Shown here one piece after another: positions 26,614-42,537 of a stretch of DNA of 64,000 nucleotides (its first letter is position 1; each line of letters starts with the position of its first letter). The notes beneath the pieces were generated by a model. That model saw only the letters and a program-made list of their open reading frames with translations, searched no databases and was not told the DNA's origin. Made by a program: the position numbers and the translations under genes. The stretch is from positions 496,001 to 560,000 of the forward strand of contig NC_013517.1 of NCBI RefSeq assembly GCF_000024405.1, written 5' to 3'. This DNA is from Sebaldella termitidis ATCC 33386. GTDB taxonomy: Bacteria; Fusobacteriota; Fusobacteriia; Fusobacteriales; Leptotrichiaceae.

Positions 26614-27085
26614 TAAAAAAATCTTAAATTTAAGAAAAATAGAATATGAAGTTATATATAGAAAAGTATATAATCTTATTATAAAAAATGAAGGGAAATT
26701 GAATTAAGCAGTGACAATAGCAGGGTTAAATAAATTTTTGAGAATTTATTATACCAGAGTATTGGAAGTATACCAATAAAGTTAAAGAAAATTAGCATGT
26801 AAAAAGGCCGGATTTATACTGGTCGGTTTTTTATTGTTGTTTTTTCGAATAAAAGAATATGTCCGTGAGGGCATTTTTTGATATCATTTCTTCCATAAAG
26901 TCCTGCTTTTAATAAAAAAATAACATTTAAAATAACTTATGAAAAGAATTTTTCCTTAACTTGATAGGTATGTGGTATTGTCCCTATTTTGGATTTCAAT
27001 TTGTCAACAAAATATGATATAATAGATTTTATATTTAAAAATTTTTTTAAAATAATTGGAAATAATAAAAAGAGGAGTAATTTTA
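26614..27085. other. Intergenic: IS91-type debris and autotransporter promoter
   Basis: 26805-26835 resembles the terminal hairpin of the IS91-type element, and near 26857-26880 the minus strand reads CPHGHIF, similar to the CPHRHV segment of copy A, so these look like further fragments of that family. TGATATAAT at about 27015-27024 is an extended -10 box for the autotransporter gene. Confidence 0.4.
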
Positions 27086-30000
27086 ATGAAAAACAAGAAA
27101 TTGTTATTTGCTTTGGCATTAAATGCTTTTTCAACATCGATTGTAAATGCAAATGATCAGGCAGTAAAGAAATATAATATATTGTATAATAACATGGTAA
27201 AAAATATAGATTTAGAAAAAACAAATGAAAGTAACTATGGCTTAATTGAAAAAGTTTTAAACCAAAGAAATAAAGAACTGAAAGATTTATATCTACAAAA
27301 TGACTATATTGTAAAACCTGAATATCTGGAATGGCAGATTTTCTTTACTGGTTTCTATAATTATGCCGATAGAGGCGGAAATCAAAAAAATATTTTTAAT
27401 AAAACAGCAGCTGACGCTAAAACGGTAGATTTAGGAATGGTAATTCCTATAAAAGGAATTAAAAGAAATGATCTGATTTTAAATATAACCTCTGTGAATG
27501 AACCTATAGTGAATGTAAACTTAAATCCGATAAAAGCACCGGAAATGACAGCACCTGAAGTTGTATATACAGAAATCGATTTTCCAAATATTCCTATTAT
27601 TGGATCTATACCCTTAAATCAACAAAATTCACTTAATGCCATAAAATTTGGAGAACGTAAAAGTGAAGTAAAATATAATGTTTTGGGGAGCAGTATTTTT
27701 AATAATCTAAATGTTGATTCTACTAATGGAACATCATTATTACTTGATGAGAATACCCGTGATATTTTAATAACCGGAGAAATGTTATATTCAAACGGAA
27801 CTGTTGCAGGTACAAGTGCTTATACATATAATCATACAGGATATCCAGATGGATTTTCAGTGAATAATATAGGAAATGGCGGGAATTTTGAAATAAAAGG
27901 AAACTGGGATATGTCGGTAGTTGATGGTATGGTTTATCAGTTTGGAGTAGGATTCCTGTCTTATATGCCATATTTTTCAAATGTAGACAGTAAAGTCTTA
28001 TTTTCTGGTAATTTGGAATTAACAGCAAAATCTACGAGTCCAAGTTATTTTTCACGATCTATAGTGGGATTAAGTCTTGATCTGTCAAATCAAAACCTAG
28101 ATCCTTCAACAAAAGCAGTTTTAGAAAATAGCGGGAAAATAATTTTGAGAAGTGGAAATTCAGTAACTAAAAATATTATTGCAATGCAGCTTATAGGAGG
28201 TTCAAGTACATCTACACAGGCTGGAGAATTAATTAACTCAGGAAATATTATAATAGAGACTAGAACAGATCTAATTGGAGATGCTGGAGGAGTGGGAATC
28301 CTTGTATCTGTGGAACCAGTAACAAAACCTGTATTGGTAAAATCAGGTAATATATTGGTAAATGGGAAGGGTAATACCGGAGTTTTATTAGGGCAGGAAA
28401 ATTTTCAAACTGATTATGTTAATTCAAATATAACAATAGATGGTTCAAATGGAAAGATAATTTTGGAAGGTGAGAGAAATTCAGGATTAAATGCAAAGAG
28501 AGCTGTAACTTCAACAGGGAACTCTTTATTAGATAATGTAAAAAATATGAATATACTTATAAACGGCTTAAACACTCCTGCTATAGTAAGACATACAGAG
28601 AATCCAATTGAGATGACAATGGATATGAAATTAAATGATTCAATTATACAGTCTGTGGAATTTGGAGAAAATTCAGTCAAAAGTTCCTTAGTACAAGTTG
28701 GTTCTAACAGCAGTTACAGTTTTGGTAACGTTATACTGGAAAGCAGCCTTGCTAATTCTATAATTCCTATTAATGCAGGCAGACAGAATATAATAGCAGC
28801 AGGATCAAGCAGTTCTATAATAATTAATTATATGCCCATAACCATAAATTCAGGTGCAAAGGCTATGATAGGAATAGCCAGCGAGGGAACTATTGAAAAT
28901 TATGCAGATATAGTCAATAATTCATCAGTGTATGAAGAAAATAACTATAAATATGGGTCAGTGGGGCTCGCTTTAACCAAATATTACAGCGGATCATCAG
29001 CTTTAAATAAGGGAAATATAGATATGAACGGAGATTATGCTACAGGTATATATAATCTTGGAAAGATGTTTTCTTCAGATAGCGATCATATAGTTATAAA
29101 CGGGAAAAATAGTACAGCAGTATATGCAGGAACTTCGCATCCTAATTATTATTCTCAAACAGTTATAAATGCTGATAAAATAGTAGTTAATGGAGATAAA
29201 AGTACTCTGTTTTTTTCAAACGGAGGAAATATTGAGATAGGAACTCATACTTTGGGACAGGCAATGGAATTAACAGCAGCAGGAAAAGATACATTTGCTT
29301 TTTTTATTAATAAGTATTACAACCTATTTGGGAAATTTAGTTTGAACAGTGATGTAAACTTAAGCTTGAAAGATGGGGCAATAGGATTTTATTATAAAGG
29401 AGCAGGTGCATCAAATATAGTTGATATACCTTTATATTTAAGTACCATAGTAGATACTGCAAATGGTAAATTATCTATAAATTCAGATGACAAAAGTTAT
29501 AATATTGCTATAGAAAATTCCGGAATTAAATTAAGTGATCTTGCAAATATATCAGGATCTGGAATAGAATTTAACGGTTCAAAAAAAGCTAAACTGCTTA
29601 AGTCAAAATTAGTTTTGGATATAGATTCAAATATAGATAAAAACAATACAACAGGGGATAAAACATACAGAGATTTAGAAATAGGAAAATCAGGAGTGAG
29701 TATTCTTGAAGGAATTACACTTAGCGGAACAGAGAATGATTTGATAGGAATAGGACAGAGTTATAATTACAATGATCCTGTTAATAGTTATATCAGCAGT
29801 GAAAATGCCGGGATAATAGACTTATCAGGAAATAACTCTATAGGAATGTACAGTAAACGTTCACAGCTCACAAATGCAGGAAAAATAAGTGCAATCGGGG
29901 ATAAGAGTACAGGAATGTATATTAAATCAGGAACTGTAACAAATGATGGTGAAATAATTATAGGAGATAGTGGTGTAGGTATATATGGGGAAACTTATCT

Positions 30001-33000
30001 GGAGCCAAGTGATAATCCGTCTAATAGTAGTTCATCAATAAATATAAATAATACAGGAAAAATAACAGCAACTGCCGGTAACAAGGCAATAGGAATATAT
30101 GGTAATCAAAATGCAGTGGCAGGTACAAATTCATCCGGGAATATTTCTTTATTCACAGGGACTGAAATAGATATGAGTTCTTCAAAAGGAGGAGTAGGGA
30201 TATACTCCAACGGTATATCAATATCAGGTTTAGGTAATACTAAAATAACAGTTGGCGAAAATGGAACAGGTCTTTATATAAAAGATTCAAACGCAAATTT
30301 TGTTGATCTGGATTTAAATTTAACGGGAGACAATTCAGTTGGTGTGTATACTGACGGAAGTGCTTCTTTCGGAGGAACAGGTAATATAAATATAGATGGT
30401 AAAGGGATAGTAGTATTTAATGTAGCAGGGAGCGGGACTTTTAATGAGAACTTTACTGTAAATTCTACAGAAGAATCGCAGTATATACTACAAAATATAA
30501 AAGATAAAATTTTATATTATAATTCTACTGCTAATCTTGGAGGAGGAGGAACATTTGTATCAGGAGTTAACTCAGCAGTATTATTGGGAGAAGATTCAAT
30601 TTTGAACTCAGAAAACTCTAATCTAGTGGGTATAGCTTTAACAGGAGGTTATGTAAATGGTCTCCCTGTAAATATAAACGGAGAAATTTTGGAACATGAA
30701 GCTACAAATAAAGGTAAGATAAACTTTGGAGATAATTCAGTAGGAATATATGTTATAAATGGAGCAAGCGGTAAAAATACCGGTGAAATATCTTTAGGGA
30801 AAAGCTCTGTGGGCTTATATGGCAGCGGCAATGGAACAAATATTGATAATGCTGGAAAAATATATATAGGTGAAAATTCAGTTGGTTTATATAATAAAGA
30901 TGGAAACAGTATTTCAAATTCCGGAAGTATTGAAAGTATAGATTTAAGAGTAATAGGCTTATATTTAGATGGAAACAGCAATTCTATAGGTGTAAATACA
31001 GGGGAAATAAAATTACTGGGAGATAAATCAATTGGTATATACATCTCTGAAAATGGTACTAAAACGATTAACAATACAAACCGTATTGAAATAGGAAGTT
31101 CAAATTTAGCAGAAGATCCAAGCATAGGGATATTTAATAATAATATTAATGGAACTGTAAATAATTCATCAGATATAATATCAGGTAAAAATTCTATAAA
31201 TATCTATAATAAAGGTGGTCAGATAAACCATCTCTTAGGAAATATAGAGGTTGGAGAAAAAGGAACAGGGATTTATACAAGCTCCGGCAGTGTGAAATTA
31301 ACAAGCGGGACTTTGAATCTAAATGGCATAGCAGCTGTAGGGGTTTATGGAACTAATAATGCAATCATAGATATTAACGCAAAGATAAATGTAAGTCAAG
31401 AAAGTTATGGAATGGTCTTAATTGGAGAATCAGATCTTACAAATAGAGATGTTTCAACACTTGCAGACAAGGGAGTTTTATTATATTCAGACGGTAATGT
31501 AAATGTTAAAAATGAATATGGTGCAAATATTAATGTGGCAGGTTCGAACTCTATAGGATTCTATATGAAAAATGGCGGAACTCTTGTAAATAAAGCAGAA
31601 ATTATTGGAAATTCAGGGATAGGAAATATAGGAATATATAATAAGTCAGGGAATATAGATAATAGTGGTAACATAAAAATAGGGAATTCCCTTATAATTG
31701 ATCCCCAAAATCCATTTGTCAATGAATATGCAGTAGGTATTTATGGTGATGGTGTAAAGAATATAAAGAATACAGGTAATATAGAGGTTGGAGCTAATGC
31801 AGTAGGGTTTTATATCACAGGAAATTTAAATGAAGCATTGAATACAGGGAATATAAGTTCAGACTCAGAAAAAGCCATTGGAATTTATTCTGAACAAGGA
31901 GCAGTAAGAAATACAGGTAATATAACATTATCAGGAGATGGAAGTATAGGAATTGCAGCAGCAAGAAATAGTAAAATTTCAAATTCAGGGACAATAACTA
32001 TGAATGGTAATGAAAATATAGGGATTTATGCACATTCAAACTCACAAATAATAAATGAAAGTACGGGAAAAATTTATATAAATGGTAATGACAGTATTGG
32101 AGTTCAGTTATCAGGCGGATCAGTACTGGAAAATTATGGATTAATAGAAGTTACTGCCGGGACAATTGGTTCAATGCAAATAGTAACCGGAGATCCAGCA
32201 TATACTCCGCCTAGTATAATAAATGCGGGAGTTATAAAAGTAGATGAGAAATTTGAGTTGGATGGCTTGAATTTAATAATAAAACCTGATCCAGAAAGTT
32301 TTAGAGCACCTACAATGGAAGAATTAATAAAAAATGAATATGCATTAGAAGATATAAATGCTGGTTTTCTATTAAGCAATAAAGTAAACATAGCAGCCCC
32401 AAGTTTTGATTTTGGTAATAATACCGTAGGAATTGATCCTTTATTTACTCAGGGAACTAATGCAAGAGTGTATAAATTTGAAAATGTATTTGATCCTACC
32501 ACTCCTGAAGGCGGACCAAATACAGGTAAAGTAGCTGTCAAAAGCGGTTCTTTAACATTTGATGCAATACCTGTAACGAATGATAAAGGAAAAATAGATA
32601 TTTGGATGGAGAAAATAAACTATAATGAGTTTACTCAAGGGTCTTGGCAAAATGAGTTTGCAGGAAATATAGAAGGAAATTATTTGAATGCAACAGGTGA
32701 TGCACTAAAATTGTATGACAGGCTAGATTTAATAACTGAAAAAAATGAATTATATAAGAGATTCGATCAGCTGGCAGGAAGTGTTTATGCAAATATAAAT
32801 CAAAGAGAAAGCGATATAGCAGGAGTATTTGAAAATTCACTGTATTTATTACAAGATTCAAAGAATAACACAAAAGAGAATGTCAAGATAAATGTAATAA
32901 CAGGTCAGGGAAAAATGAAAGACGATACAGCAGGAGTGACAGGTTATGATTTTGGTACAGTTGGAGTATTAGCTTTAAGAGAAGTCGAAAGAACGTACAA

Positions 33001-33715
33001 ACATACATTTGGATATTCATTAGGATATCTGCACACAAGTTTTGAAATGGATGATAATAACAACAGTGAGGAATGGGTAGATACGATTCAGTTAGGAGTA
33101 CATAATAAGTATACAGTAAGTGGCTGGATACTGAGAAATGACTTAACAGGAAGGGCAAGTATCCATAATATAGATAGAAATATAGACTGGGCAGATGGCA
33201 GATCAGAAATGAATGGATTTTATGAGACATATAGCATAACAAGTGATAATAAGCTGGGTAAGGAAGTATTGGGTGGAAAGAACGTAAGTATAACACCTTA
33301 TGCAGGACTAAAAGCAATGTATGTAACAAGACCTTCATTTGAAGAAAAAGGATTAGAAAAATTACAAGTAGAAGGAAATGATGCCTGGAGTGTAAAACCA
33401 AAAGTAGGATTTGAATTTAAGGCATCAACAAATGAAAGTAAAAATGGCTGGAAATTAAAAGGAGCTTTAGATATAACCTATGAATATGAATTAGCTAATT
33501 TAAATACTCAAGAGAAAGCAAGATTGGTATCACTAGAAGATGGATATCACAACTTAGCGAAGCCAGAAGAAGAAAATGGAAGATTAAGAACAAAAGTAGT
33601 AATAGGAACAGAAATAGAGGACAGATATGGAATATTCTTAACAGGAGAATATTCTATAGGAGAACATAGCCAAGATGATTATAGAGCAGGAGTTACTCTA
33701 AAAGCTGTGTTTTAA
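27086..33715 (+). CDS. Giant type V autotransporter adhesin
   Basis: 2209 residues from ATG 27086 (AGAGGAG upstream; the 30-bp longer frame has no ribosome site and would spoil the signal peptide). Signal peptide 1-22 (KKLLFALALNAFSTSIVNA). An N-terminal region (~23-150) of the autotransporter-associated type is followed by a ~1700-residue passenger of irregular beta-helix repeats with core (N/K)(T/S)G.I..G..S(V/I)G(I/L)Y. The last ~280 residues form the outer-membrane barrel (GVLALREVERTYKHTFGYSLGY..) ending with Phe (GVTLKAVF), as needed for BAM insertion. It is likely a surface adhesin or biofilm factor. Nearly cysteine-free. A terminator lies 60 bp downstream. Confidence 0.92.
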   Translation: MKNKKLLFALALNAFSTSIVNANDQAVKKYNILYNNMVKNIDLEKTNESNYGLIEKVLNQRNKELKDLYLQNDYIVKPEYLEWQIFFTGFYNYADRGGNQKNIFNKTAADAKTVDLGMVIPIKGIKRNDLILNITSVNEPIVNVNLNPIKAPEMTAPEVVYTEIDFPNIPIIGSIPLNQQNSLNAIKFGERKSEVKYNVLGSSIFNNLNVDSTNGTSLLLDENTRDILITGEMLYSNGTVAGTSAYTYNHTGYPDGFSVNNIGNGGNFEIKGNWDMSVVDGMVYQFGVGFLSYMPYFSNVDSKVLFSGNLELTAKSTSPSYFSRSIVGLSLDLSNQNLDPSTKAVLENSGKIILRSGNSVTKNIIAMQLIGGSSTSTQAGELINSGNIIIETRTDLIGDAGGVGILVSVEPVTKPVLVKSGNILVNGKGNTGVLLGQENFQTDYVNSNITIDGSNGKIILEGERNSGLNAKRAVTSTGNSLLDNVKNMNILINGLNTPAIVRHTENPIEMTMDMKLNDSIIQSVEFGENSVKSSLVQVGSNSSYSFGNVILESSLANSIIPINAGRQNIIAAGSSSSIIINYMPITINSGAKAMIGIASEGTIENYADIVNNSSVYEENNYKYGSVGLALTKYYSGSSALNKGNIDMNGDYATGIYNLGKMFSSDSDHIVINGKNSTAVYAGTSHPNYYSQTVINADKIVVNGDKSTLFFSNGGNIEIGTHTLGQAMELTAAGKDTFAFFINKYYNLFGKFSLNSDVNLSLKDGAIGFYYKGAGASNIVDIPLYLSTIVDTANGKLSINSDDKSYNIAIENSGIKLSDLANISGSGIEFNGSKKAKLLKSKLVLDIDSNIDKNNTTGDKTYRDLEIGKSGVSILEGITLSGTENDLIGIGQSYNYNDPVNSYISSENAGIIDLSGNNSIGMYSKRSQLTNAGKISAIGDKSTGMYIKSGTVTNDGEIIIGDSGVGIYGETYLEPSDNPSNSSSSININNTGKITATAGNKAIGIYGNQNAVAGTNSSGNISLFTGTEIDMSSSKGGVGIYSNGISISGLGNTKITVGENGTGLYIKDSNANFVDLDLNLTGDNSVGVYTDGSASFGGTGNINIDGKGIVVFNVAGSGTFNENFTVNSTEESQYILQNIKDKILYYNSTANLGGGGTFVSGVNSAVLLGEDSILNSENSNLVGIALTGGYVNGLPVNINGEILEHEATNKGKINFGDNSVGIYVINGASGKNTGEISLGKSSVGLYGSGNGTNIDNAGKIYIGENSVGLYNKDGNSISNSGSIESIDLRVIGLYLDGNSNSIGVNTGEIKLLGDKSIGIYISENGTKTINNTNRIEIGSSNLAEDPSIGIFNNNINGTVNNSSDIISGKNSINIYNKGGQINHLLGNIEVGEKGTGIYTSSGSVKLTSGTLNLNGIAAVGVYGTNNAIIDINAKINVSQESYGMVLIGESDLTNRDVSTLADKGVLLYSDGNVNVKNEYGANINVAGSNSIGFYMKNGGTLVNKAEIIGNSGIGNIGIYNKSGNIDNSGNIKIGNSLIIDPQNPFVNEYAVGIYGDGVKNIKNTGNIEVGANAVGFYITGNLNEALNTGNISSDSEKAIGIYSEQGAVRNTGNITLSGDGSIGIAAARNSKISNSGTITMNGNENIGIYAHSNSQIINESTGKIYINGNDSIGVQLSGGSVLENYGLIEVTAGTIGSMQIVTGDPAYTPPSIINAGVIKVDEKFELDGLNLIIKPDPESFRAPTMEELIKNEYALEDINAGFLLSNKVNIAAPSFDFGNNTVGIDPLFTQGTNARVYKFENVFDPTTPEGGPNTGKVAVKSGSLTFDAIPVTNDKGKIDIWMEKINYNEFTQGSWQNEFAGNIEGNYLNATGDALKLYDRLDLITEKNELYKRFDQLAGSVYANINQRESDIAGVFENSLYLLQDSKNNTKENVKINVITGQGKMKDDTAGVTGYDFGTVGVLALREVERTYKHTFGYSLGYLHTSFEMDDNNNSEEWVDTIQLGVHNKYTVSGWILRNDLTGRASIHNIDRNIDWADGRSEMNGFYETYSITSDNKLGKEVLGGKNVSITPYAGLKAMYVTRPSFEEKGLEKLQVEGNDAWSVKPKVGFEFKASTNESKNGWKLKGALDITYEYELANLNTQEKARLVSLEDGYHNLAKPEEENGRLRTKVVIGTEIEDRYGIFLTGEYSIGEHSQDDYRAGVTLKAVF

Positions 33716-35894: not shown

Positions 35895-36366
35895 ATGATA
35901 AGTTTATTACTATAGTCAGGTTATGCAGGAATTGTACATTTAAACGAATATATTACCAAAATGAACCTAGAATGCTAGATTATCTATTCTCTGTCAATTT
36001 TTATTGGTATTATAAAATAGCAGCAAAAATCTTAGGAAAAAATAGAAGAATTAATATATGATTGCAAAAAAAATTCACTATAACAGAATAATCAGATATT
36101 CTAAAAAAGTTTAATTTTTTTTATTTTTAATAAATTAATATATTGGTAGATATTTTTTTACTTTTAATATGATTAGTGTGTAATTTCTTCTCTTCCTTTT
36201 CTTAGCTGTCCAACTTCTCTCCTTCTCTTTTATTCTAATTATTTTAACCTAACTTATTTTTCTATCCAGTTTAGTGTAGTCCGTTCACTATTATAGAGTA
36301 CTAAAAAAGCATCCAAAAACAGATGCTTAAATTGTATATAGATTTTATAGTATTGTTTTATATAGA
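35895..36366. other. Intergenic with IS-end relic
   Basis: 36235-36290 (CTAACTTATTTTTCTATCCAG..) is an inverted relative of the IS end at 33845-33890. Upstream are AT-rich relic sequences without a usable frame. The terminator at 36303-36330 closes the leftward sulfur operon. Confidence 0.4.
36303..36330 (-). terminator. Terminator of the sulfur operon
   Basis: Minus strand AAGCATC, 8-nt loop, GATGCTT and then six T, 37 bp past the stop of the last gene. Confidence 0.85.
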
Positions 36367-37350
36367 TTAAAATACTTTATCATAAAAAGATTTATCACTC
36401 CATTCTTCTATAGAAAAATCTTTTGTAATTAGGTTATTTTCCAGTAAAAATTCTTTGCACTGCTCTAATTGAAATATTATTTCAGGTGTAATATTTATCA
36501 TATAGCGTTTATTTATATTATCCTTATTAAAATCATAAATTTTTCTGACAGTATTTACATTCATATTATGTGATTCTGCTAAAATTCTATAGGCTTCATC
36601 TTCATTTTCAAAAATAAAATCTACACCTTTTTTCAAACCTTTTAGTACTGCTTCTATTGCTTCTGGATTTTTTTTAGTATAATTATTATTTCCTACGAAT
36701 ATACTTTTTCCGGCTAAATCCGGATTTTTTTCAGTATCAGCTATAATCTCAGTCAAGCCCTTGTCTCTAGTAAGTCTTTCTGTAAAAGTTTCCGTGAAGG
36801 CCACAGCATCTACACTTCCCCCTAGTAATGCAGATTCTGCATCAGAAGATATTTGTAAAAATTCTACATCATTTTCAGAAAGTCCGTTTCTTTTAAGTAT
36901 TTCTATCACAAATCTGTGTATATAAGTGCCTTTTGGAAATGCTATTTTTTTTCCTTTTAAATCAGAGACAGATTTTATAGTAGAGCCTTTTTTGACTATA
37001 ATTCCTGCATTTATGTGGTTATCTGCAATTGCATATAAAGAATTATCAATACCTTTTGATTTTAAAATTATTCCGGGAACTTCAGCATAAATTGCCACAT
37101 CAATTTTTCCTCCGATTAATGCTTCATTTACTGCCGGCCCATTTCCGGAAAAATTAATATACTCAACTTCATAACCTATATTTTTTAATTCATTTTCTAT
37201 GAATTTTTTTTGTTGTGCAATTCCTGCCACTCCATCCAGTACATTAACACTGCCTGGAAAGCCAATTCTTACTTTTTTTATTTCTATTTTTTCTTTTTGA
37301 CATGATATGAATAAATTGAAAATTACTATTAAAAATATTATTTTTTTCAT
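36367..37350 (-). CDS. ABC sulfonate/nitrate-type substrate-binding lipoprotein (SsuA-like)
   Basis: 327 residues, GGAG before ATG 37350. Lipoprotein signal KKIIFLIVIFNLFISC with Cys17. The mature protein follows the SsuA/TauA/ThiY fold: VRIGFPGSVNVLDG, EVEYINFSGNGPAVNEALIGGKIDVAIYAEVPGII, VKKGSTIKSVSDLKGKKIAFPKGTYIHRFVIEIL, SSDAESALLGGSVDAVAFTETF. It captures the substrate and delivers it to the permease/ATPase encoded upstream. The precise ligand (sulfonate, sulfate ester or another organosulfur compound) cannot be read from sequence. Last gene of the operon. Confidence 0.88.
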   Translation of the reverse strand: MKKIIFLIVIFNLFISCQKEKIEIKKVRIGFPGSVNVLDGVAGIAQQKKFIENELKNIGYEVEYINFSGNGPAVNEALIGGKIDVAIYAEVPGIILKSKGIDNSLYAIADNHINAGIIVKKGSTIKSVSDLKGKKIAFPKGTYIHRFVIEILKRNGLSENDVEFLQISSDAESALLGGSVDAVAFTETFTERLTRDKGLTEIIADTEKNPDLAGKSIFVGNNNYTKKNPEAIEAVLKGLKKGVDFIFENEDEAYRILAESHNMNVNTVRKIYDFNKDNINKRYMINITPEIIFQLEQCKEFLLENNLITKDFSIEEWSDKSFYDKVF

Positions 37351-37383: not shown

Positions 37384-38151
37384 CTAAATATTATATTCTA
37401 ATTCATTATTTTTATCTTCAAAAAGTTCTCTGTATACTTTATTTTTTATGTATAAAAAATCATAGCTGCTTCTGTCTCTTATCGGGTGTTCGACCTTTAT
37501 TATTTTTTCCCCTGCAGATTTTGATGATAAAATAACAATCCTTGTTCCTAAGTATACAGCTTCTTCTATGTCATGTGTTATCATTATCATTGTTTTATTG
37601 CTTTTAGACCAAATTTTCAATATCTCTTTCTGCATTTTAATTCTTGTCAAAGCATCAAGAGCTCCAAACGGTTCATCAAGCAGTAATATTTCGGGATTAC
37701 TGGCCAGTCCTCTTGCTATTGCCACTCTTTGTGCCATTCCGCCTGAAAGCTGCTTAGGATAAGCATTTTTATATTCTAATAAATTTACCATTTCTAATAA
37801 TTCTAATGATATATTCTCTCTTTCTTTTTTCAAAAGATTATCTAAACCAAACTCAATATTTTCCTTTATAGTAAGCCATGGCAGCAGTCTGTGTTCTTGG
37901 AAAACAACTCCTCTGTTAATACCGGGACCTTTTATTTCCTGTCCATTTAGACGGATTATACCTGAATCACTGGTTTCCAGACCTGCAATTATTTTTAGCA
38001 GAGTGCTTTTTCCACAGCCGCTGTGTCCGACTATTGTGATAAATTCTCCTTTTTTTATATCAATATTTATATTTTCGAGTACTTTTATCTCATTCTTATT
38101 TATAATAAATTTTTTCTCAAGATTTTTAATCTCCAGTATTGTATCTGACAA
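37384..38151 (-). CDS. ABC transporter ATPase (SsuB/TauB-like)
   Basis: 255 residues from TTG 38151 (AAGGAG 6 nt upstream). Walker A GHSGCGKSTLLK, Q-loop VVFQEHRLLPW, signature LSGGMAQRVAIARGLA, Walker B ILLLDEPFGALD and H-loop MITHDIEEA are all intact. FQEHRLLPWLT is typical of the SsuB/TauB/nitrate subfamily. It powers uptake through the permease encoded 21 bp upstream. Confidence 0.92.
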   Translation of the reverse strand: MSDTILEIKNLEKKFIINKNEIKVLENINIDIKKGEFITIVGHSGCGKSTLLKIIAGLETSDSGIIRLNGQEIKGPGINRGVVFQEHRLLPWLTIKENIEFGLDNLLKKERENISLELLEMVNLLEYKNAYPKQLSGGMAQRVAIARGLASNPEILLLDEPFGALDALTRIKMQKEILKIWSKSNKTMIMITHDIEEAVYLGTRIVILSSKSAGEKIIKVEHPIRDRSSYDFLYIKNKVYRELFEDKNNELEYNI

Positions 38152-38172: not shown

Positions 38173-39000
38173 TTATTTTGTAGTATTCCATGGTGTAAGT
38201 TCTCTTAATATACGGTCTAATATCCTGTCCATTATGACTCCCAGCAGACCGACTACTATTATTCCTGTAATTACTACATCAGACTGGAGTAAATTTCTTG
38301 CATCATTTATCCTGTAACCTATTCCGGATGTAGAAGCTATTAATTCCGCAGCTATCACAGTCATCCATGCCGAGCTTAAACCTAGTCTGAGACCTACAAA
38401 AATATTTGGCAGCGCATAAGGTAAATATATCTGTCTGAAAATTTTCCAGCTGTTTTTATTATATAGTTTCGCTACTTCAATATAAGCTTTTGGTGTTGAT
38501 TTTATTCCTGATATAGTATTTAATAAAATTGGAAAAAATGAGGCTTTTGCTATTAAAATTACTTTTGAAGTTTCACCTATACCAAACCACAGAATAACTA
38601 AGGGTATCCATGCAAGAGGAGGAATCTGTCTTATTGCGTCAAATGTTCCTGAAAAAAATTTATTTGTACTTCCGGATATTCCCATTAATGTACCCATAAA
38701 AACTCCTAGAATCAAACCAATTCCATATCCTTGCATTACTCTGGATAAACTAATCAATACATCCTGAAATATCTGCCCCGAGCTAATTTGTGATATCAGG
38801 GAAGTAAAAACCATTGCTATTGATGGTAAAATAACCGGTGAAAATAGTTCATTTTTTGTGGCACTTATCCAAAATATAACTATAATCACCGGCAATGCTA
38901 TATAGTTGAATATTCCTAATCCTTTATTTACAAAACCTGAAATGAAATAAAATGCTGCTTTTTTTGGATTTATTCTTATTTTTTCAGTCAAAATTTCCAT
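38173..39000 (-). CDS. ABC transporter permease (SsuC/TauC-like)
   Basis: 275 residues, AAGAGG before ATG 39000. Six membrane helices, with the subfamily's GFGIGLILGVFMGTLMG-like helix and the coupling segment (I)RQIPPLAWIPLVILWFGIGETSKV. The latter (PPLAW.PL...WFG.GE.sK) is diagnostic of nitrate/sulfonate/taurine permeases. Inner-membrane subunit of the importer. Confidence 0.92.
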   Translation of the reverse strand: MEILTEKIRINPKKAAFYFISGFVNKGLGIFNYIALPVIIVIFWISATKNELFSPVILPSIAMVFTSLISQISSGQIFQDVLISLSRVMQGYGIGLILGVFMGTLMGISGSTNKFFSGTFDAIRQIPPLAWIPLVILWFGIGETSKVILIAKASFFPILLNTISGIKSTPKAYIEVAKLYNKNSWKIFRQIYLPYALPNIFVGLRLGLSSAWMTVIAAELIASTSGIGYRINDARNLLQSDVVITGIIVVGLLGVIMDRILDRILRELTPWNTTK

Positions 39001-39044: not shown

Positions 39045-40847
39045 TCATAAAAAACGATTTTCAATATCATTAAAAAATTCTATTAGTTCAGCCTCGCTTT
39101 TTTCTCCGTAACTTTGAGCTAAAATTTTACCTTTTTCAAAAACTATTAATGTCGGAATTCCTCTTATCTGGTATTTCTCTATAAATTCAGTTTTTTTATC
39201 TACATCAATATACTCAAATTTAAGTTTATTCTTATACTTTGAAATAATTTTGACTAAAATCAAATATAGATTTTTGCAATGTACACATCTCTCCGCTCCA
39301 AATAAAACCAATATTTTTTCTTCATTACGATTTTCTGCTTCTTTCTTTTCTGCTGTATTATTTTCTGTAAAAATTTCTCTGTCTATTGTAAATAATTTAG
39401 GACTCCTTTTTATATTTTCCTGATCAACTATGATACAAAGAGCATCGCTGCTGTCTTCATAAGGTCTTAGCCCTTCTACTTTTATTATTGAAGCAGCTCC
39501 CGTTTTTGCAGCATTAGGAAGTCTGAAATTCCTTATATCTGGTGCTGTTATTGATTTTTCTTCTGGTTTTTCTAGCTGGGGTATCCAATCATATGGTATT
39601 CTGTATGCCCGATAAATCATATTATTTTTTGTAGTTTTCCCCCAGTACGGAGAAATAAATTCCCACACTATTTCATGTTCCGGAGTAACCTCAAATATTC
39701 TCCCGTCTGCACCTTCATCAATTAATGTGTTGCCATTCTCCAGCCTTTGTGCACTGCTGATATAAGGACTATAAAATCTAAATGAATCTGTAGGATGTGG
39801 AAATCCTGCTTCTGCTGGCGTATACTGCCACACAATATCAAGTGTTACCGGATTTATTTCCAATATTCTCGAATAATCTCTCAAGGCATTTTTCTGCCCA
39901 ATTTTTGACATTGGATTTATTTCTCCATATCCTCCCCAGCCTCCATTATCAAAAACCAGTATATTTCCTTCACCCGGTAATCCCTTAGGTATCATATGAG
40001 CATGATGCTGACCTATTATCCAGCCGATGTGTTTTAATTCCTCTTTAGAATAATCAGGGCCTAATTTCCAGACTATTTTACCGCTCCTCTTTTCAATTAT
40101 TGCTATAATATTAGACTCTCTTGCATCCCATATGATATTATCGGGGTGAAATCTCTCGTCTCCCTGATCATACCATTTATTAGGACCCAAAGTTGACATT
40201 GAATTTATATGCATCCAGTCTCCCATGCCTTCTCCGGCTTTTCTCATATTAGGATCTCTGAATAAGACATTTTTAGCCGCTTCATCAAATCCTAACTCAT
40301 CAAAATGATCACTGCAAATCCATTCCCATATTACGTTTCCTTCCCAGTCTACTTCTATTATAGCGTCATCTAAAAGAAGCTTATCTGAGATTTTTTTATT
40401 ATATAAATTTTTATGTACTAAAATAAGTGTATTTCCGCTGTTAATTTTAGGTTCCTGGCCAGGTGAGTAATATCCTGTTGAACTTCCTTCTCTTTGATAG
40501 TCATGATGTGCCCTTGCCATCCACTCAGCCTCATTCTCACCATCTTTTATATATTCGTATCTGTTAAATTTCCATACAATATTTCCTTCCCAGTCTATTT
40601 GGATAAGATCTATCATATCCTGCATTCCATACTTTGGGTTCCTGCTTCCCGAATGTCCTAAAATATGTCCGCCCGGAAATATTTTATTTGGAAATCCATG
40701 CAGCCCTTCCCATAAACGCAGCTCTTTTCCATTCATATCTAATAATACCGCTCCCAGCTCACATGCCTGTATTATCGTATATCCGTTCCATGCCTTGTCA
40801 GAATTATAAATAGTTACTCCTGTAGGATAAACTGTCGGGTGTCCCAT
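39045..40847 (-). CDS. Arylsulfotransferase-thioredoxin fusion protein
   Basis: 600 residues, AAAGGAG before ATG 40847. Residues ~1-430 match the arylsulfotransferase (ASST) beta-propeller: repeated blade motifs DWEGNIVWKF, DWEGNVIWEW, GKIVWKL, LDIVWQY, EIVWEF, and conserved His segments ARAHHDYQ, DWMHINSM, GQHHAHMI. ASST enzymes move sulfate groups between aryl esters through a sulfo-histidine. Residues ~505-600 are a thioredoxin domain (ILVLFGAERCVHCKNLYLIL, Cys521/Cys524; cis-Pro at RGIPTLIVF). No signal peptide, so the fusion should be cytoplasmic, unlike periplasmic AssT. It sits between sulfite reductase and the importer, suggesting release or reductive handling of a sulfo group. Confidence 0.85.
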   Translation of the reverse strand: MGHPTVYPTGVTIYNSDKAWNGYTIIQACELGAVLLDMNGKELRLWEGLHGFPNKIFPGGHILGHSGSRNPKYGMQDMIDLIQIDWEGNIVWKFNRYEYIKDGENEAEWMARAHHDYQREGSSTGYYSPGQEPKINSGNTLILVHKNLYNKKISDKLLLDDAIIEVDWEGNVIWEWICSDHFDELGFDEAAKNVLFRDPNMRKAGEGMGDWMHINSMSTLGPNKWYDQGDERFHPDNIIWDARESNIIAIIEKRSGKIVWKLGPDYSKEELKHIGWIIGQHHAHMIPKGLPGEGNILVFDNGGWGGYGEINPMSKIGQKNALRDYSRILEINPVTLDIVWQYTPAEAGFPHPTDSFRFYSPYISSAQRLENGNTLIDEGADGRIFEVTPEHEIVWEFISPYWGKTTKNNMIYRAYRIPYDWIPQLEKPEEKSITAPDIRNFRLPNAAKTGAASIIKVEGLRPYEDSSDALCIIVDQENIKRSPKLFTIDREIFTENNTAEKKEAENRNEEKILVLFGAERCVHCKNLYLILVKIISKYKNKLKFEYIDVDKKTEFIEKYQIRGIPTLIVFEKGKILAQSYGEKSEAELIEFFNDIENRFL

Positions 40848-40871: not shown

Positions 40872-42344
40872 TTATTTGAAATAATTTAAAAAATTCTCTA
40901 TTTCTATTTTGTTTTCATCTACAAATGTTTGATAATCTTTTTTTGATTCTAAAATCTTCTCGCCTAAATAAAATAAAAAATCCTTTATTTTACTTCTTTC
41001 AATATCCCCATATGATTCTCCGATTTTTAAAACTTCTGCTCTTCGGCCTCCCAGAAATATTTCATATATATCTAATTGATTACCATTTTCAGTTTTTCTT
41101 TTTTTTCCCATAAATCCAATTGGAAATATTAGATGTTGGCCGCATGAATTTATACATCCTGAAATCCCTATGTTTGGAAGTATTTCCAATACTTTTTCAT
41201 TTTTTGTTTTTAAAAATTCTATTATTTCTTTCACTAATATATCTGTTTTCAAAAACCCCAAGGTGCATGTACTGGCACCTGTACAAGCTGTTAAAGATAA
41301 TACTTTATGCTGATTATAAAGATCGTAGAATATTTCCTCTCCTTTTTTTTTGTCTTCTTTATTGAGCCCGAGAATGTACAGTCCCTGTGTATTTGTTAAT
41401 CTTATTTTTGTTTTATATTTGATTTCTTTTATAAAAATTATTATTTTTTCAAGGTCATTTATTTTAAGTTTTCCATGTAACGGATGTAAGTAAAGATTTT
41501 CTTTATTTGTATATTCAAATTTATTGCTGGAGTTATCTAAATTTAGTTTTAGATCTTTTTCTTTTGATTTTTCAAAAAATAATTTTAAATATTCTTCCTT
41601 AAATTTTGTTTCTCCAAAATTATCCAGAATATATCTTATTCTGGCTTTATGCTTATTTTCTCTGTTTCCGTATTTATTAAATAATTCAGCCATAGCAGTT
41701 ATGGAAACATAAACTTCTTCCTCAGTAATAAAATCCTGAAGCAGAATACCCTGTCTGGGATTTTTCCCCATTCCGCCGCCGCCATATACTTTGAAGCCTT
41801 TTATATCATTTTTTTTAATTGCTATAAATCCTAAATCATTTATTTGGGCATTTATGTCATCTGTTTCATTATTTGAAAAGGCTATTTTGTATTTTCTGGG
41901 AAAATCGTTTTTTATTCCCGCATCTTTAAGCTTTTTACTGACTTCCTTTACGTGAACGCTAACATCAAATTCTTCATTTTCATAACCGCTTTTAGGTGAA
42001 ATTACAATATTTCTAATAGTATTCCCGCCTGTTCCAACTACGGAAAAGCCTAATTCTTCCAGTTCTTTTGCTGTTATTTTTAATTCTTCCTTAGATATAT
42101 CATGAAACTGTATGTCCTGTCTTGTAGTAATATGTATACTTTCTTTGTTTAACCTCCTTCCGAGAGAAATTAATTTTATTCCCTGCTCCGGAGTTATCTC
42201 GCCACTATTGACCCTGCCTCTTACCATAAAATTCCCTGTTCTTTCCAGATAAACCCCATAAGATGAGCGGATTTTGGAAAATTCCGTTTCTCCTTTCTCT
42301 GTGTTGATAATATCTAATACGTTTAAAAAATTATAGATATCCAT
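40872..42344 (-). CDS. Siroheme sulfite (nitrite/sulfite) reductase
   Basis: 490 residues, AAAGGGA before ATG 42344. The siroheme/4Fe-4S ligands are present as C-x5-C (Cys354, Cys360, in TACTGASTCTLG) and C-x3-C (Cys397, Cys401, in ISGCINSCGQH). The N-terminal half has the ferredoxin-like repeat with HITTRQDIQFHDI and RNIVISP, typical of the family. It should reduce sulfite to sulfide for cysteine synthesis; nitrite is the alternative substrate, but the sulfur transporter and Cys leader argue for sulfite. First gene of the operon, behind an attenuator. Confidence 0.88.
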   Translation of the reverse strand: MDIYNFLNVLDIINTEKGETEFSKIRSSYGVYLERTGNFMVRGRVNSGEITPEQGIKLISLGRRLNKESIHITTRQDIQFHDISKEELKITAKELEELGFSVVGTGGNTIRNIVISPKSGYENEEFDVSVHVKEVSKKLKDAGIKNDFPRKYKIAFSNNETDDINAQINDLGFIAIKKNDIKGFKVYGGGGMGKNPRQGILLQDFITEEEVYVSITAMAELFNKYGNRENKHKARIRYILDNFGETKFKEEYLKLFFEKSKEKDLKLNLDNSSNKFEYTNKENLYLHPLHGKLKINDLEKIIIFIKEIKYKTKIRLTNTQGLYILGLNKEDKKKGEEIFYDLYNQHKVLSLTACTGASTCTLGFLKTDILVKEIIEFLKTKNEKVLEILPNIGISGCINSCGQHLIFPIGFMGKKRKTENGNQLDIYEIFLGGRRAEVLKIGESYGDIERSKIKDFLFYLGEKILESKKDYQTFVDENKIEIENFLNYFK

Positions 42345-42372: not shown

Positions 42373-42405
42373 TAAAAAGAACCTGGATTATCTGTCCAGA
42401 TTCTT
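42373..42405 (-). terminator. Attenuator terminator before the sulfite reductase gene
   Basis: Minus strand AAGAATCTGGA pairs with TCCAGGTTCTT (one G-U), loop CAGATAA, followed by TTT. It lies between the leader peptide and the first structural gene. CTGG of its 5' arm can alternatively pair with CCAG just upstream (42407-42414), a possible antiterminator. Confidence 0.8.
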
Positions 42406-42477: not shown

Positions 42478-42537
42478 TCAAACTCGCCGGCTACACATAC
42501 ACATATTGTAATTTATAATATTTATTTTATTTTCCAT
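42478..42537 (-). CDS. Cys-containing leader peptide MENKINIINYNMCMCSRRV
   Basis: 19 codons starting at ATG 42537, with GGAG 7 nt upstream and TGA at 42480-42478. The peptide has Met-Cys-Met-Cys near its end, then Ser-Arg-Arg-Val. It lies 24 nt after the predicted transcription start and ahead of two hairpins, the last being the terminator at 42373-42405. Position and codon content fit a ribosome-mediated attenuator sensing charged tRNA-Cys, controlling the sulfite reductase operon. It is too short for automatic gene calling. Function inferred from layout. Confidence 0.75.
   Translation of the reverse strand: MENKINIINYNMCMCSRRV

Follow-up and report, generated by a model that had tools for sequence, protein, structure and literature searches.

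There is only a partial understanding of how anaerobes that lack sulfate activation derive sulfite from organic sulfur, and the enzymes known to us for this purpose are radical enzymes or lyases that act on sulfonates. One gene of Sebaldella termitidis ATCC 33386, located in the 64,000-nucleotide stretch of DNA that we analysed (the window), bears on this question, as it encodes an arylsulfotransferase (AssT)-type propeller joined to a thioredoxin domain. What does such a protein do in the cytoplasm? The initial annotation had proposed that the thioredoxin domain couples sulfo transfer to the release of sulfite. We found no description of such a system in the literature searched (AssT with thioredoxin, sulfite and sulfonate). 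The annotated copies carry only the name 'aryl-sulfate sulfotransferase', which makes it probable that the function has escaped notice.

Domain architecture of the fusion protein

The gene has the ribosome site AAGGAGATG, starts with ATG and encodes 600 amino acids (Table 1). Pfam assigned residues 135-398 to the arylsulfotransferase families PF05935 (Arylsulfotrans, 88.1 bits, cut-off 24.2) and PF14269 (55.7 bits, cut-off 27) and residues 506-592 to PF00085 (Thioredoxin, 63 bits, cut-off 23.5); each score exceeds its curated cut-off. The AlphaFold2 model (mean pLDDT 90, pTM 0.78) is confident for the propeller and the thioredoxin and poor for the connecting stretch at ~470-510. Using Foldseek, the propeller matched Cpz4 (9kf6, E 4e-18) and E. 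coli AssT (3ets, E 6e-12), while the C-terminus matched thioredoxins. The latter domain carries Cys521 and Cys524 (CVHC) and the cis-Pro motif IRGIPT. No signal peptide was found at the N-terminus (MGHPTVYPTG), and the start position is common to the relatives of the protein. Congruently with the initial annotation, the protein is thus a propeller with a C-terminal redox domain and no export signal.

Table 1. Features of the operon in the window and layout of the fusion protein
Feature	Position	Strand	Basis or remark
Terminator-like hairpin	36307..36328	-	past the last operon gene
SsuA-family substrate-binding lipoprotein	36367..37350	-	TIGR01728, 164.2 bits, cut-off 163.5
ABC ATPase, SsuB/TauB type	37384..38151	-	profile matches
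ABC permease, SsuC/TauC type	38173..39000	-	profile matches; 44-base gap from the fusion gene
AssT-type propeller + tail + thioredoxin fusion	39045..40847	-	Pfam, alignment, AlphaFold2, Foldseek
Layout of the fusion protein			propeller ~1-450; tail with conserved Cys471; thioredoxin ~500-597, C521VHC524
NIR_SIR sulfite/nitrite-reductase family protein	40872..42344	-	siroheme/4Fe-4S pattern CX5C...CX3C
Terminator-like hairpin with T run	42377..42405	-	between leader peptide and sulfite reductase
Putative leader peptide MENKINIINYNMCMCSRRV	42478..42537	-	ribosome site; Cys codons

The propeller fold and a catalytic His/Asn/Arg set are common to the fusion protein and AssT of E. coli CFT073 (PDB 3elq/3ets; PF05935), but the former is cytoplasmic, carries a fused thioredoxin, lacks the Ig-like N-terminal domain (PF17425 was not matched) and the Cys418-Cys424 disulfide loop, and its gene lies in an uptake/sulfite-reductase operon. 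Its only cysteines are Cys29, 178, 471, 521 and 524; the absence of the structural disulfide cysteines fits a cytoplasmic protein, unlike the classical exported AssT enzymes with their signal peptide and Dsb-served structural disulfide. Cpz4, the caprazamycin sulfotransferase of Streptomyces (PDB 9kf4/9kf6), is the best structural match of the propeller, but at 18-19% identity; it is a biosynthetic sulfation enzyme and the matched chain has no redox domain. Classical AssT units also occur elsewhere in this genome: a protein of 1349 amino acids (L101:4439-8488, minus strand; C1 ~2557439-2561488) carries two of them in tandem, with PF17425 and PF05935 each matched in two stretches, and its gene has nucleotide-sugar and glycosyltransferase genes as neighbours.

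The active site and a conserved tail cysteine

The family profile aligned to AssT 3elq (HMMER, E 4e-14), from which the AssT numbering is taken. In this alignment, AssT His436 (TQH) corresponds to His281 of the fusion protein (QHH), His356 and Asn358 to His213 and Asn215 (DWMHINS), and Arg374 to Arg243; His252 was placed on His114 (in the HH of HHDYQ) through a homologue alignment. These five AssT residues are catalytic, with His436 as the sulfated histidine. All five counterparts are invariant in the 81 aligned rows, so that the histidines to which the initial annotation had pointed fall on the AssT active site; AssT Thr501 is replaced by Ile363.

Beyond residue 446, conservation reaches 90% at only three positions, Gly450, Gly459 and Cys471. 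Cys471 is kept in 78 of 81 rows and lies just ahead of the thioredoxin linker in fused proteins and near the C-terminus in unfused ones; it is missing in four exported or outgroup homologues (Methylosinus, two from Mailhella and SAR324). In the AlphaFold2 model it falls in the low-confidence region. From its conservation, Cys471 is probably the sulfo acceptor, with or without the fusion. In PAPS reductase, a C-terminal tail cysteine carries the sulfo group, a parallel that is suggestive only. APS/PAPS reductases (CysH, PF01507) resemble the fusion protein in this tail cysteine and in the thioredoxin-driven sulfite release proposed here, but their fold is unrelated: PF01507, the adenylyl-sulfate-binding fold, was not matched in the fusion protein, for which no nucleotide substrate is proposed.

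A sulfur-uptake operon with a putative attenuator

The operon consists of a leader followed by the genes for sulfite reductase, AssT/thioredoxin, permease, ATPase and SsuA, separated by 24, 44, 21 and 33 bases. The SsuA/B/C-type importer and the role in sulfur supply are shared with the Ssu/Tau/Ats systems of organosulfur scavenging, but the operon has no flavin monooxygenase, dioxygenase or formylglycine sulfatase, and the route proposed here is oxygen-free; SsuD and SsuE, for oxygen-dependent desulfonation, were not found in the operon. An assignment of the transporter to the SAO organometal system was rejected, since the matches to SaoX, SaoA and SaoP stayed under the NCBIfam equivalog cut-offs (37.9/300, 251.3/360 and 210.9/295 bits). 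Elsewhere in the window, positions 27056-33715 (plus strand) encode an autotransporter-like repeat protein of 2219 amino acids.

The leader reading frame comprises 19 residues, and the folding of the leader region beats nearly all shuffles (z -3.9). The same operon occurs in another genus of the family (genome G082), where a similar leader (L097:11866-11949, minus strand) ends in MCMWF (...NEMCMWF). Searches against Rfam gave only sub-threshold matches, and the motif has only imperfect matches, near control level, elsewhere in the Sebaldella genome. Because of its Cys codons, the leader and its hairpin look like an attenuator that would sense the supply of cysteine (or methionine), as expected of a sulfur-assimilation operon. 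In G082 the reading frame of the sulfite reductase is broken (L097:9980-11598, minus strand), with the fusion and transporter genes intact.

Sulfur metabolism of the host

In the Sebaldella genome (4.49 Mb, 3 contigs) we found neither PF01747 (ATP sulfurylase) nor PF01507 (the PAPS/APS reductase family), which was matched in 14 of 14 control genomes. As PF01507 also takes in CysD, the enterobacterial sulfate-activation route is excluded as well. There are two sulfite reductase-type systems, the NIR_SIR protein next to the fusion and a separate AsrC. Among seven other Fusobacteriota carriers tested, of which G008 is only 67% complete, all have NIR_SIR proteins and none has PF01747, while in two of them a frame of ~555 amino acids matches PF01507.

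With no detectable sulfate activation, released sulfate would be useless to the cell, while sulfite would feed the adjoining reductase. This bears on the reading of the protein as a hydrolytic sulfatase that yields sulfate, with incidental neighbours. AssT-type enzymes do desulfate aryl sulfates when given acceptors, which such a reading could draw on; yet a scavenging operon that delivers sulfate and includes a sulfite reductase makes no sense in a host without a detected activation route, and the redox partners described below would go unexplained. We regard a hydrolytic sulfatase as very improbable.

DsrA scored above its curated cut-off in 23 of 31 carrier genomes (29 with unfused and two with fused genes) and in none of the 14 controls, and Moorella sulfitireducens combines the AssT gene and DsrA with no match to PF01747.

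Dithiol partners of fused and unfused relatives

We collected 79 loci with relatives of the gene. In 31 of them thioredoxin is fused to the propeller: 29 are from Enterobacterales, one is from a Lachnospiraceae MAG and one from another MAG of the Firmicutes. Every Fusobacteriota carrier has the fusion too. The domain is thus far from being lost in close relatives, and the CxxC is retained in all 40 fused proteins. The 48 unfused loci come mainly from Desulfovibrionales, Desulfosporosinus, relatives of Desulfotomaculum and Moorella, among others, and the unfused orthologues are 60-70% identical. A single origin of the fusion was not recovered in the tree, which requires four changes and is weakly supported. 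In Enterobacterales the fused genes adjoin LysR, SsuA-like, double-permease and ATPase genes. Culturable carriers include Klebsiella oxytoca and Cetobacterium; E. coli genomes contain no close counterpart of the Klebsiella gene.

A dithiol gene lies within 4.5 kb in 33 of the 48 unfused loci versus none of the 31 fused ones, a difference whose Fisher value (p 8e-11) is descriptive only and overstates independence, as these patterns follow lineages. The partners at unfused loci are a glutaredoxin-like/radical-SAM-fold protein with an invariant CxRC (30 loci), a lipoyl H-protein with an ESAK lipoylation site, ESVK in one case (13 loci), a dihydrolipoyl dehydrogenase-type match, weak in a few cases (17 loci), and a separate thioredoxin with a thioredoxin reductase-like gene (two loci, L076 and L081); LipA/LipB genes stand beside the unfused gene in L033. 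Where no dithiol gene is nearby (15 of 48, some on short contigs), housekeeping thioredoxin may serve as donor. Four genomes that belong to a single Fusobacteriota genus (Cetobacterium-type; G006, G007, G010 and G014) have genes for a thioredoxin reductase and an SLC13 carrier that adjoin the fused gene or are one gene off; on a plasmid of Cetobacterium somerae, the corresponding places are held by genes for an FAD-dependent oxidoreductase and for an SLC13 carrier.

A dithiol source and its reductase thus accompany the clade in several unrelated forms, as predicted for a reaction that consumes dithiols. From these gene neighbourhoods, dithiol coupling would belong to the cytoplasmic clade as a whole, and the fusion would be one of several ways to provide the partner. 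The unfused loci recall the lipoate-binding protein (LbpA) sulfur oxidation systems (PMC6067878), in which a lipoyl H-protein and a dihydrolipoyl dehydrogenase also lie beside sulfur enzymes, but we propose them to be reductive and not oxidative. As a further difference, the H-protein of L030 passes the ordinary GcvH cut-off.

An ordinary intracellular sulfotransferase acting between phenols, whose thioredoxin has no role other than to protect or regulate cysteines (Cys178 or Cys471, for example), would agree with the PF05935 membership and the conserved site. We judge it improbable, since it accounts neither for the adjoining sulfite reductase and the lack of sulfate activation, nor for the dithiol donors and their reductases that recur at these loci, nor for the DsrA-rich hosts.

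Three further observations concern the unfused loci. The partner at L030:8378-9232 (minus strand) and about 30 other loci is an uncharacterised family, with a glutaredoxin-like N-domain bearing the invariant CxRC and a radical-SAM-fold domain that lacks the cysteines of the cluster. In Mailhella, exported-looking AssT-like homologues adjoin the cytoplasmic gene (L074:12367-13656, minus strand; L062:4277-5662, plus strand). In Desulfosporosinus, a metallo-beta-lactamase with an alkyl-sulfatase dimerisation domain is encoded beside the unfused AssT gene (L048:8240-9529, plus strand).

Transporters and the likely substrate

Transporters of the SsuABC, SLC13, TRAP and aromatic-acid MFS types are associated with the family loci, as are TctA-like ones, judged by length and sequence start, which indicates that the cells take up an organic anion. 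At L098, a tightly packed operon encodes tyrosine phenol-lyase, thioredoxin reductase, AssT/thioredoxin, DASS and NhaC. Its first gene product (857 bits, cut-off 720.7), a single case, would consume tyrosine freed from tyrosine O-sulfate, which suggests that the substrate is phenolic.

A sulfate ester is not what Ssu-type transporters would suggest, since their usual association is with sulfonates. The same reductive scheme could act on an organosulfonate or an S-sulfo compound (such as S-sulfocysteine or thiosulfonates). The SsuA/B/C-type transporter, which the window shares with Enterobacterales, would allow this; the DASS, TctA, TRAP and aromatic-acid MFS carriers found elsewhere fit too, and all of these suit many anions. 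Known AssT chemistry cleaves an O-S bond with a phenolate as leaving group, and we know of no precedent for C-S cleavage by this fold. The wholly conserved AssT site and the tyrosine phenol-lyase make such substrates unlikely. Aryl or phenolic sulfates, favoured by AssT chemistry and by the tyrosine phenol-lyase neighbour, are most likely the substrate.

Proposed mechanism and implications

The reading that we favour, and hold to be reasonably likely, is that of a PAPS-independent cytoplasmic AssT-fold enzyme with a reductive end to its cycle, which would convert aryl sulfate to sulfite. An organic sulfate ester, likely a phenolic or aryl sulfate, would enter through the Ssu-type ABC transporter, and its sulfo group would pass to His281 to form a sulfohistidine and from there to a cysteine thiol, likeliest that of Cys471 in the flexible tail or of thioredoxin Cys521. 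The thioredoxin dithiol would then free sulfite from the Cys-S-SO3 adduct, as APS/PAPS reductases do, and be re-reduced by thioredoxin reductase. Sulfite would go to the adjoining sulfite reductase for assimilation; in other hosts, Dsr-type or Asr-type reductases would receive it. Points against this scheme are the usual tie of Ssu-type transporters to sulfonates, the unfused loci that have no dithiol gene nearby, the replacement of AssT Thr501 and the low model confidence around Cys471.

The dithiol mechanism of the initial annotation, in modified form, is thus the best available reading and is partly supported. Its core, the release of sulfite by the redox domain, gained from the gene context (the adjoining sulfite reductase and the lack of sulfate activation) and from the genes for dithiol partners that adjoin unfused orthologues and for thioredoxin reductase next to fused ones; the fusion itself is not unique, and the likely acceptor is the tail Cys471. 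Whether this amounts to a new activity, an "aryl-sulfate reductase" of a widespread cytoplasmic AssT clade that would turn sulfate esters into sulfite with dithiols from thioredoxin, glutaredoxin-like, lipoyl or related partners, appears to us evenly poised.

If true, a dithiol route from sulfate esters would explain the operon and save the ATP of sulfate activation. It would allow assimilation without this activation in Fusobacteriota, Enterobacterales, Clostridium and Paenibacillus, and would provide sulfite as a respiratory electron acceptor in Desulfovibrionales, Desulfosporosinus and Moorella. Bacteria of the gut and of sediments would then also draw sulfite and H2S from sulfate esters, such as the phenolic conjugates that reach the gut.
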